Source: Pseudaquidulcibacter saccharophilus
Lineage (GTDB): Bacteria; Pseudomonadota; Alphaproteobacteria; Caulobacterales; Aquidulcibacteraceae
Assembly (NCBI RefSeq): GCF_019455445.1
Contig: NZ_JAHWUS010000001.1
Location: 310,001 to 374,000, forward strand
Direction: 5' to 3'
Length of the DNA stretch: 64,000 nt
In this document: in pieces, positions 8,479-11,328 of the stretch
How positions within the stretch are numbered: the stretch's first letter is position 1
Layout: each line of letters opens with the position of its first letter
Program-made: the position numbers and the translations under genes
The notes under the pieces: model-generated
The model's database searches: none
What the model was told of the DNA's origin: nothing
What the model saw: the letters and a program-made list of their open reading frames with translations, nothing else

Positions 8479-8742
8479 ATGGCAAATACAACTTCGGCTA
8501 AAAAAGCAACTCGCAAAATTGCTCGCCGCACTGAAATCAATACTGCTCGTCGTTCACGCGTAAAAACTTTTGTTCGTAAACTTGAAGAAGCGGTTGCTGG
8601 CGGCGATAAAGAAGCTGCTAAAGTTGCTTTCACCAATGTTGAGCCTGAAATCATGCGTGCGGTTACCAAAGGCGTTATTGCTAAAAATACTGCTGCTCGT
8701 AAAGTTTCAAGACTTTCTGCTCGCGTAAAAGCAATGGCATAA
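8479..8742 (+). CDS. rpsT: 30S ribosomal protein S20
   Basis: An 87-residue basic protein that binds 16S rRNA early in 30S assembly. The start [25 protein letters not shown] and the end [18 protein letters not shown] are typical of S20, as is the length. It has its own terminator and precedes dnaA by about 1 kb, a conserved alphaproteobacterial neighbourhood. Confidence 0.98.
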
Positions 8743-8767: not shown

Positions 8768-8795
8768 TACCGCCTCAAAAGGGCGGTATTTTTTT
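8768..8795 (+). terminator. Intrinsic terminator of rpsT
   Basis: TACCGCC (8768-8774) pairs with GGCGGTA (8782-8788), followed by seven T. Confidence 0.92.
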
Positions 8796-8940
8796 GCCTA
8801 AAAATTATTCTGGTGGATAAGTGTGGGAATTAAGAAGTTTTTAAGACATTTTAATAGTGCTTACTATAAAAATGCGACACAATAACACTGTTTGTAACGC
8901 GCTGTTTTTATTATATTATTTTCAGTTAATATAATGGGCG

Positions 8941-9072
8941 GAATCTGCCGTTTTATTATGCAAAATTTTATCCACAGGTTTTATGACATTTTTTTCACAG
9001 GTGGAAAAAGCTAGAGTCTTGACGCCATTGGGATTCTTTTAGAGTCAATAAAATTTCTGCAAAAAAAGAATC
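8941..9072. promoter_or_regulatory. Cluster of five GANTC (CcrM-type) sites
   Basis: GAATC 8941-8945, GAGTC 9014-9018, GATTC 9032-9036, GAGTC 9042-9046 and GAATC 9068-9072. Four of them fall within 59 bp. Random sequence would give about one site per 256 bp. GANTC is the target of the alphaproteobacterial cell-cycle methyltransferase CcrM. Confidence 0.6.
8968..8999 (+). promoter_or_regulatory. Pair of DnaA boxes
   Basis: TTATCCACA (8968-8976) and TTTTTCACA (8991-8999), same orientation, 23 bp apart start to start. The first is identical to the E. coli R1-type box. The second is also the left arm of a small inverted repeat (TTTTTCAC AG GTGGAAAAA). Confidence 0.6.
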
Positions 9073-9783
9073 ATTTTAACTGTTGCAAGCGCGTTTTTAA
9101 TGCGCTTAATTAAAATCGTTGCATGATGAGAGAGGCCAGTAATTGGCTTTTAAATCAGCGTTTAGCATAAATTTAAAATCTATTTGGGTGATGAATTAAG
9201 AATTTGATTTAGACTTTATCTTCTGGCGCCATAATGGTTCTGCTTAATTGATAAGTTTTCGATCTCTAAATTCTGATGCGGCAAATAGTTTTGGTTTTTG
9301 TGGGGCGCTATGGGTTTGTGAAATTATTTTGCAAACTTGTGATAGGGGGTAAGGAATTTGGGTTTTAAAATGGTTTACAAATCTCTTGTGGCCATAATTT
9401 AAAGTCCAACAATTAATTGATGTCTGAAATTTTTCTGGCAAAAATTAATTGCAAAATAGCTATTGGCGGGAAACAAAACTTCCATTGCTAATATCTAATC
9501 CAAAAATAAACATTCCTTTTGGAATGACGGGGGAATCGAAGTATCAAATATGTTTTCGACATAAGAGATACGGGCATAAGTGAATGATTTCTGATTGTTC
9601 ATTATGTCTATAAATTGCAACATTCCGGATTGTAGAAATTTGATTGTTAATTCATTTTAGCAAGTAAATTTGTGCGCCCAAAATTACCATTTTTCGTTCT
9701 TATTATTAGGATAAGAAATGCGGAATGGATAATAGATTAAATTTATATGTGTGTATGTTTTGGATGCTTGGTGGGGTTAAATA

Positions 9784-11328
9784 ATGGCAAACGATAAAGG
9801 CCAGTCAGTAGGAAAAAGACTTGTGGCAGAGTTCGTAAGTGAGAATATTGATCACGACGCACTTAATCATGATAATTTAGCTGAAAGCAATTTTTCGTCC
9901 CTGAAGAGCGGCGCCAATAATGAAACCAACCAATTGGCCGACAATCTTGCTGCGGCAAATAATATTTGGCAGAAACTTTCACCACGCCTCAGAAGTATTT
10001 TGGGCAATGGCGATTTCAAGGCATGGATTGCGCCTTTAACATTATACAAAGCAACCGAAAGCATCATTTGCTTTAATGCGCCAAATGACTTTGCGCGTTC
10101 ACGTATTCGCACTGAATATTTGCATCGTTTACAGGCGGTTTGGAATGATTTTGATCCAATGCGCCGCCGTCTTGTTATAGATCACCATGCTACCAAAGAG
10201 GCAATCAGCCTTTCATATGATGAAGTGGTGAATATTACCAAAGAAGTTAAACACGAAGCGGTTGAAACAATTAATTCAACCCAACTTTTTGAACCAATAG
10301 ACCTTAACCATTGTCCAAAAACTTTCGACAATTATGAAAAAGGTGCTTCAAACCAAATCGCAATTGCGGTGGCAAAGCGTATTGCCTGTGAAATGGGCGG
10401 TGGTGAAATTATTTATTTTCATGGCCTTAATGGGGTTGGTAAAACCCACCTTCTAAGCGCGATTGCCCATCATTCAATGGAATCTAATTCAAAACGCCGC
10501 GTAATTTCAATTACTGCACAGCGATTTTTAAATTTGTTCCAAAATGCTTTGCGCGATAAACAGCTTAATCCATTTAAAGAAGGATTGCGTGGTGCAGACC
10601 TTCTTTTGGTGGACGATATTCAAATGATTTGCGGCAAATCTGCCACCCAAGATGAGTTTTTTCAAACCATCATGGATTTGTTGAATATGGGTAAAACCGT
10701 GGTTTGTACTGCGGATGTTCCACCTGATGCTTTATTGGGCCTAACCTCACGGATGCAGGGTATTTTGATGGGTGGCTTCAATGTTCGTATCGAAGAACCG
10801 GACTTTGAGCTGCGACGAAAGATTGCATTGCGCAAGGCGCAAGAATTCGCAATAAAAAGACCGGACTTTAAACCACCGCAAGAGGCATTTGACATTCTTG
10901 CTGCGCGTATTATTGGTACTGGGCGTTCAATTGAAGGTGTGGTAAAGCAGATTTTTGCTTCATCGGCTTTGATTGGGCAGGAGGCAACAATGGAAGTGGT
11001 ATTCGACACAATTGGCGACCGGTTCAAAGCACCGTCTAAAACTGTGCCTGTTGAAAATATCAAAAAGAAAGTTGCACAGCATTTTGATATCACCATAGAA
11101 GATTTGGTTGGTACACGCCGCCATATTTCTGTTGCGCGCCCGCGCCAGATTGCAATGTATTTCTGCAAGAAATTTACTAAACGCTCATTCCCTGATATTG
11201 CGGCGCGTATGGGTGGTCGTGATCACACAACTGTCATGCATGCAGTAAAACGTATCGAAGAATTGGCAAATAAAGACACCAAATTTGCTAATGAGCTTCA
11301 GATTATTGCCAATAAAATCTTGGGATAA
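9784..11328 (+). CDS. dnaA: Chromosomal replication initiator protein DnaA
   Basis: AAA+ ATPase that binds DnaA boxes and opens the origin. The 514-residue product has domain I starting at IWQKLSPRLRSIL (residue 61), the Walker A motif GLNGVGKT (214-221), Walker B LLLVDDIQ (273-280), and the domain IV signature GGRDHTTVMHAVKRIEEL (about 477-494). Sixty residues precede domain I, an extension beyond most DnaA proteins; no ATG lies between them, and only a weak ribosome site (GGTGGGG) is seen. dnaN does not follow: dnaA ends at a strong terminator and the next gene is convergent. The upstream region has DnaA boxes, so autoregulation is likely. Confidence 0.97.
   Translation: MANDKGQSVGKRLVAEFVSENIDHDALNHDNLAESNFSSLKSGANNETNQLADNLAAANNIWQKLSPRLRSILGNGDFKAWIAPLTLYKATESIICFNAPNDFARSRIRTEYLHRLQAVWNDFDPMRRRLVIDHHATKEAISLSYDEVVNITKEVKHEAVETINSTQLFEPIDLNHCPKTFDNYEKGASNQIAIAVAKRIACEMGGGEIIYFHGLNGVGKTHLLSAIAHHSMESNSKRRVISITAQRFLNLFQNALRDKQLNPFKEGLRGADLLLVDDIQMICGKSATQDEFFQTIMDLLNMGKTVVCTADVPPDALLGLTSRMQGILMGGFNVRIEEPDFELRRKIALRKAQEFAIKRPDFKPPQEAFDILAARIIGTGRSIEGVVKQIFASSALIGQEATMEVVFDTIGDRFKAPSKTVPVENIKKKVAQHFDITIEDLVGTRRHISVARPRQIAMYFCKKFTKRSFPDIAARMGGRDHTTVMHAVKRIEELANKDTKFANELQIIANKILG

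Follow-up and report, generated by a model that had tools for sequence, protein, structure and literature searches.

The closest described counterpart of the locus analyzed here is the dnaA promoter of Caulobacter crescentus, which reportedly takes part in a CcrM methylation ratchet, an account attributed to Collier et al. in 2007 and cited in PMC3973325 and PMC3708114. Herein, the interval between rpsT and dnaA (8796–9783) was studied in a 64,000-nucleotide stretch of DNA from Pseudaquidulcibacter saccharophilus (Caulobacterales), referred to as the window. The interval is best explained as the promoter and leader of dnaA, and not as a chromosomal replication origin (oriC). At its core lies a module of about 160 bp that combines a DnaA box, GANTC sites, a GTCAA box and a sigma-70-type promoter. 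A probability of roughly three in four is assigned to this interpretation.

Several studies of Caulobacter bear on methylation and dnaA transcription. According to a section of PMC3973325, a change of GANTC in cis from full to hemi-methylation alters dnaA promoter activity slightly but significantly. A figure legend of PMC3667746 reports that loss of ccrM was without effect on steady-state DnaA levels, an observation that argues against methylation having a strong effect in this organism. In an excerpt of PMC3885167, a mutated putative methylation site of dnaA had no significant effect. Furthermore, a passage of PMC3708114 (2013) describes the methylation sites in question as non-essential and notes that a methylation-dependent regulator acting on dnaA or ctrA transcription had yet to be identified. 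Surveys of GANTC have covered the proximal upstream DNA of genes: in PMC2877005, the counts ran from 400 bp upstream of genes to 100 bp within them, with no conclusion drawn on methylation control, and the survey described in an excerpt of PMC3973325 reached 200 bp upstream of start codons. With such a reach, a cluster located 712–843 bp upstream, as found here, would be missed.

The present locus resembles that of C. crescentus in that GANTC precedes dnaA, genes for CcrM and GcrA are present in the genome, and the probable origin lies at hemE. It differs in carrying five clustered GANTC sites 712–843 bp upstream of the dnaA ATG and a perfect DnaA box at a fixed distance from one of them, as well as in its predicted leader of about 665 nt and an origin some 54 kb away. 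A second point of comparison is the RRF motif, which a passage of PMC1175088 places between −10 and −35 and describes as common to promoters of replication genes that swarmer cells keep silent, with dnaA among the silenced genes. The GTCAA box is likewise an element common to promoters, but it lies upstream of −35, ending 33 bp before GTTG. Equating the two was rejected on this difference in position, no search for RRF matches having been made.

A conserved module upstream of dnaA

Thirteen dnaA loci, five from the genus of the window and eight from genus g6, were aligned; locus L017, which has no DnaA box, was left out. The alignment revealed a module (8960–9115) consisting of a DnaA box, 64–65 bp of intervening sequence, ATTGrGAnTC, GTCAA, TGTTGC and GCTTnA. 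The elements TATCCACA, ATTG(G/A)GANTC, GTCAA, TGTTGC and GCTTnAnT each occur in all 13 loci, and the full TTATCCACA in 12, the exception being L008, where one base is changed (CTATCCACA). The DnaA box starts 64 bp before the GANTC at 9032 in L004 and L005, whereas the remaining loci with both sites show 65 bp. The window and its nearest relative, L005, are identical over 8960–9079 and 97% identical over 9080–9139, other 60-bp bins of the gap ranging from 68 to 98%. In the pair L006/L007, two bins of the module reach 98% and the other gap bins 78–93%. This conservation supports a dnaA regulatory region, one of the two roles that the original prediction had offered for the interval.

The end of the module fits a predicted sigma-70-type promoter (Table 1), from which the inferred transcription start would open a long leader. 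At the equivalent place, many loci of other groups carry GTTGAC...GCTAGT or GTTGC...TTGCTA. The leader is predicted to fold more stably than shuffled sequences, with z-scores of −3.76 in the window (9127–9786, 20 shuffles), −3.78 in L005 (20 shuffles) and −2.23 in L007 (100 shuffles). Five GANTC sites lie upstream of the predicted −35, as expected of a CcrM-controlled promoter of the Caulobacter type, and the promoter region carries a conserved DnaA box, as expected of a DnaA-autoregulated dnaA gene, the box being absent from L017 of a third genus. CcrM probably methylates the dnaA promoter, and DnaA probably binds it.

The interval holds one perfect DnaA box and three weak ones beside an AT-rich stretch, and only one of the four is conserved. 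As originally claimed, the perfect box and the consensus-fitting TTTTTCACA are 23 bp apart (start to start), and the adjoining DNA is rich in AT: the rpsT–dnaA gap, 1041 bp long, has a GC content of 32%, compared with 37–46% in 2-kb bins of the window. DnaA boxes with one mismatch showed no enrichment in the window (11 vs. 17.7 expected). The perfect box is meaningful because its distance to a GANTC is fixed in relatives, and not because of box counts.

Table 1. Features of the rpsT–dnaA interval and its flanking genes (positions in the window)
Feature	Position	Strand	Basis or remark
rpsT, upstream neighbour	8479–8742	+	PF01649 (1.6e-26), TIGR00029
Probable terminator of rpsT with an 8-pair stem and a T run, separating rpsT from the dnaA region	8768–8795	+	Terminator scan
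Weak DnaA-box-like site TTATCCACC	8812–8820	−	Motif scan
GANTC site 1, possibly part of a 5-pair hairpin (8937–8949)	8941–8945		Same place in L005 among the relatives compared
Perfect DnaA box TTATCCACA	8968–8976	+	64 bp upstream (start to start) of GANTC at 9032
Second DnaA-box-like site TTTTTCACA, fits TTWTNCACA	8991–8999	+	Among 13 loci, only in L004 and L005
Weak DnaA-box-like site TTTTCCACC	9000–9008	−	Motif scan
GANTC site 2 (GAGTC)	9014–9018		Same place only in L004 and L005 of 13 loci
GANTC site 3, inside ATTGGGATTC, conserved	9032–9036		ATTG[GA]GANTC in 13/13 loci
GANTC site 4, overlapping the GTCAA box (GAGTCAA)	9042–9048	+	GTCAA in 13/13 loci; GANTC overlap in L004, L005 and L008
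GANTC site 5 (GAATC), upstream of −35	9068–9072		Conserved in L004–L007
Predicted dnaA promoter: −35 TTGCAA (9083–9088), 17-bp spacer, −10 TTAATT (9106–9111)	9083–9111	+	Locus comparison
Predicted long dnaA leader, ~665 nt	9118–9783	+	More stable folding than shuffles
dnaA, 514 amino acids	9784–11328	+	TIGR00362, 371 bits (cut-off 343.9)

Clustering of GANTC sites and its taxonomic reach

Five GANTC sites fall within 132 bp (8941–9072), as the original prediction had counted, and a sixth lies in the gap at 9533. From the composition of the gap, 0.37 sites would be expected in 132 bp. The excess is thus about 14-fold, near the claimed factor of about ten. The cluster stands out in DNA where the motif is scarce: 62 sites were counted in the window vs. 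144 in shuffles, and 435 vs. 936 (first-order Markov expectation) in 400 kb around the site. These 400 kb, part of the single contig C4 in which the window starts at position 310,001, underlie all contig-wide counts and the GC skew; the genome (G000) comprises 2.84 Mb in 12 contigs. The dnaA cluster is the only place in the 400 kb where at least four GANTC lie within 132 bp.

The search for ccrM in the genome was positive. A CcrM-like gene of 369 amino acids with N6_N4_Mtase (PF01555) and RAMA (PF18755) domains was found at one place, and a gcrA gene likewise at one place. CcrM protein matches at E < 1e-20 were obtained in 64/80 and 75/80 of the genomes tested, a loose limit that includes a few other methyltransferases. 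For the counts below, CcrM was scored absent where no match reached E < 1e-100, and a truncated match of 66% identity in G219 was scored present.

Within the order of the window (58 gaps), GANTC sites are in excess (150 vs. 122 expected; sd 9.7, maximum 148), and three GANTC within 132 bp were found in 16 gaps vs. 6 (maximum 12). Among the 85 other class members with CcrM, 24 gaps have three GANTC in 132 bp vs. 14.9 (control maximum 24), and the 23 CcrM-negative class members show no excess of GANTC in the gap (25 vs. 35 expected). A class-wide GANTC excess upstream of dnaA was not seen in these 108 other class members, and the GANTC pattern belongs to a part of the class.

A GTCAA box with preferred spacing

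The part of the module that goes beyond known systems is the GTCAA box with its preferred spacing. GTCAA followed by GTTG[ACG] within 70 bp occurs in 65 of 102 rpsT–dnaA gaps, 29 from the order and 73 from named records, compared with 14 in a Markov control (maximum 25). At least three GANTC in 132 bp are present in 58 of the same 102 gaps vs. 14.9 in the control (maximum 24). The full set comprises 239 gaps. It draws on 80 loci hand-picked, mostly one per family, from the best-scoring DnaA matches listed in 289 genomes, with lower-scoring groups left out, and on a further 40 loci hand-picked from 78; loci without rpsT before dnaA are omitted from the gap counts (L008 of 30; 7/80 named; 7/80; 5/69).

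Across all of these gaps, the spacing between GTCAA and [GT]TTG[AC] peaks at 12 bp (27 vs. 1.2), 33 bp (29 vs. 0.9) and 55 bp (9 vs. 1.1). Lesser peaks are seen at 15 bp (8, each contributed by a second GTCAA in genus g6) and at 32 bp (8, six of them Rhodobacterales whose −10, TTGCTA, was counted twice). In the window, 33 bp separate the end of the box from GTTG, and the box lies upstream of the predicted −35. In Rhodobacterales, the order being read from record titles, 25 of 29 gaps show the 12-bp distance, and in the order of the window 26 of 58 gaps lie at 32–34 or 55 bp and 32 do not. Two Devosia loci have distances of 22 and 23 bp; among Rhizobiaceae, L131 and L146 have 32 and 33 bp and L144 has none. 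Several single spacing matches, for example in L181, L113, L158, L110 (34 bp) and L267, are chance-like. Relative to 33 bp, the distances of 12, 55 and 22–23 bp are shifts of 21, 22 and 10–11 bp, within 1 bp of two, two and one helical turns, respectively. A crude null, in which any shift from 5 to 40 bp is allowed, gives a chance of 0.7% for three whole-turn shifts, in a test devised post hoc and with the number of independent shifts being our own reading. The preferred gaps of 12, 33 and 55 bp in Rhodobacterales and Caulobacterales thus suggest helical phasing. Class I activators such as CRP are known to act from upstream sites at distances differing by whole helical turns; the GTCAA spacing is similar in this respect, and activation through GTCAA is only putative.

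The box takes the form GAGTCAA in many loci, where it is overlapped by a CcrM site; other loci have TGTCAA or AAGTCAAG and no GANTC. In the genome of the window, GANTCAA-N30-36-GTTGM occurs at 18 places vs. 5 in a reversed control, and ATTGNGANTCTN6GTCAA with up to two mismatches at 16 places vs. 7, the exact form being found at dnaA only. On inspection by eye, two other roles for GTCAA were rejected: no conserved −10 lies at a suitable distance for it to serve a divergent promoter as −35, and it does not fit the IHF consensus.

A tentative proposal, which we consider more apt to fail than to hold, is that GTCAA is the putative site of an unnamed dnaA regulator common to Caulobacterales, Rhodobacterales and some Rhizobiales, bound on one helix face relative to RNA polymerase. 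CcrM methylation would tune this site in many lineages and would have been lost from it in others, and the factor could be the missing methylation-sensitive regulator of dnaA. No earlier description of such a box in dnaA promoters was found among the papers listed, judged by titles and the opening lines of abstracts; subscription papers lay mostly outside this search, and an earlier description is possible.

The probable replication origin at hemE

The cumulative GC skew of the 400 kb has its minimum at about C4:265,000 and rises thereafter, with a second dip at about 395–400 kb that stays well above it. The original prediction had named the location of this minimum as a check on an origin in the interval; the minimum falls at hemE (C4:264,870–265,874) and not at the site. 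The start of dnaA, at C4:319,784, is 55 kb from that of hemE, and about 54 kb separate the GANTC cluster from the gap that hemE (PF01208) forms with a Kinase-PPPase gene (PF03618, formerly DUF299). This gap (C4:264508–264857; 4508–4857 in L041) spans 350 bp with 27% GC and contains four TTAA-N7-TTAA boxes, including an overlapping pair, of the 11 present in the 400 kb, along with two copies of TTATTCACA and one of TTATCCACC. It thereby resembles the hemE side of the Caulobacter origin Cori in its CtrA-type and DnaA-like boxes and its skew minimum. The resemblance belongs to a gap outside the window, whereas the dnaA interval has a single TTAA-N7-TTAA, at 8830, and no skew minimum. On the basis of skew, neighbouring genes and motifs, the chromosomal origin is likely to lie in the hemE gap.

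A one-contig genome from a neighbouring genus (G033), whose locus L009 has the same dnaA module, offers a comparison. Here, dnaA (2.30 Mb) is 971 kb from hemE (3.27 Mb). Twenty 20-kb skew samples, coarse and with a sum that is not zero, were positive in 9/9 cases from 60 to 1,480 kb and negative in 7/10 from 1,635 to 3,230 kb, the exceptions being positive values at 1,985, 2,160 and 2,860 kb; the sample at 3,385 kb was weakly positive. The turn from falling to rising skew is therefore placed at about 3.2–3.4 Mb, close to hemE, and dnaA lies in the mostly falling half. Among 25 genomes of the order in which hemE was sought, 16 have both genes on one contig (G000, G003, G021, G025, G030, G033, G037, G041, G043, G049–G051, G053, G056, G058 and G060), at distances of 29–971 kb, that of G060 being measured across the contig ends on the assumption of circularity. 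With this spread, dnaA has no constant position with respect to the probable origin.

Proposed mode of regulation and points against it

The arrangement is compatible with a mechanism in which DnaA would drive firing at the hemE origin and the fork would reach dnaA some 54 kb later. After its passage, the GANTC cluster would stay hemimethylated until CcrM becomes active towards the end of the cycle. Promoter strength would then depend on this methylation state and on a putative factor at GTCAA, and DnaA at its own box would report its own level.

Several findings weigh against this interpretation. Conservation of the GANTC sites is uneven, since only site 3 is present in 13/13 loci, sites 1 and 2 being seen in one species pair and site 5 to four loci, and GTCAA has no overlapping GANTC in 10 of the 13 loci. 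L017, from genus g7 and with a DnaA 45% identical, has neither TTATCCACA nor GTCAA at the preferred gaps. The proposed promoter is absent from the list given by a scan with Escherichia coli hexamers, which also showed no promoter-like excess (3 vs. 5.1), so the predicted promoter derives from comparison alone. In the gaps of the 85 other class members with CcrM, GANTC is not in excess (257 vs. 267 expected). Lastly, with the module of G033 located 971 kb from hemE, the timing of fork passage cannot be the same everywhere.

Alternative explanations

The other role offered by the original prediction, a chromosomal oriC in which DnaA would open the AT-rich stretch and GANTC would take the part of GATC, draws on the DnaA boxes beside DNA of 32% GC next to dnaA. 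It is very improbable, given the skew minimum about 54 kb away at hemE, the CtrA-box cluster and DnaA-like sites of the hemE gap, and the varying distance between dnaA and hemE in 16 of 25 genomes of the order. For the GANTC cluster itself, a role-free origin through relaxed selection in an intergenic gap was also considered. GANTC is over-represented at least 1.5-fold in intergenic DNA of alphaproteobacteria except Rickettsiales, according to a passage of PMC7987155, and three of the five sites are unconserved beyond a species pair or four loci. Such an explanation appears improbable, as the 400 kb contain many other gaps and no other cluster of four or five sites, only 0.37 sites would be expected from the gap's own composition, site 3 is retained in 13/13 loci, and L004 and L005 do not differ at any base over the 120 bp around the sites.

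A somewhat stronger contender, still unlikely, is a plain GcrA-activated promoter as in Caulobacter, where GcrA would act on methylated GANTC and activation would be tied to YGAKTCK. GcrA is said to lower dnaA expression in Caulobacter. The gcrA gene is present, and site 5 fits YGAKTCK on the minus strand (TGATTCT), the sole match in the gap; the remaining GANTC sites of the gap, including the most conserved one at 9032, do not fit, and GTCAA is conserved where GANTC has been lost. The motif is taken from an excerpt of PMC7987155, which also notes that there is seemingly no extended-motif preference in Brevundimonas, and this weakens the test against GcrA. Regarding the GTCAA spacing, common descent of a few promoters, to which we give somewhat less than even odds, competes with helical phasing. 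By title, Rhodobacterales make up 25 of the 27 loci at 12 bp, and 8 of the 9 at 55 bp belong to genus g6; the 22–23-bp class comes from the two Devosia loci, with three others chance-like, which leaves about three independent shifts, and six of the eight 32-bp matches are the twice-scored Rhodobacterales −10. Against descent stands the agreement of all shifts with whole 10.5-bp turns to within 1 bp, at the 0.7% of the crude post hoc null.

Other features of the interval

Shortly past the rpsT terminator, a CtrA-like TTAA-N7-TTAA box with an overlapping N6 variant was observed at 8830–8854. An inverted repeat, CATTCC-TTTT-GGAATG, is located at 9511–9526 inside a stretch (9500–9619) that is 95–98% identical to L005. 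Five small open reading frames of 26–42 codons, counted from ATG, are present in the gap, and no RNA family or tRNA was reported across the whole window. The DnaA protein is divergent: identity is 64–96% within its own genus, about 55% to genus g6, 23–46% to the other order members compared, and 30–37% to 80 named DnaA loci, a set in which records near the genome itself may be left out. Its profile score with TIGR00362 (Table 1) contrasts with scores above 550 bits for all of the best matches listed, and other class members score 365–554 bits. In three members of another family of the order (f3), DnaA is 81–94% identical to named Brevundimonas and Caulobacteraceae records, which suggests that the order is Caulobacterales.

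Biological significance

The timing of DnaA synthesis in alphaproteobacteria is unsettled. The conserved box near the −35 provides a short and concrete target for experiments in laboratory Caulobacter. In addition, the occurrence of the same module in two genera, with dnaA about 55 kb from hemE in one and 971 kb in the other, offers a natural test of the idea that the passing fork sets the time of dnaA expression.
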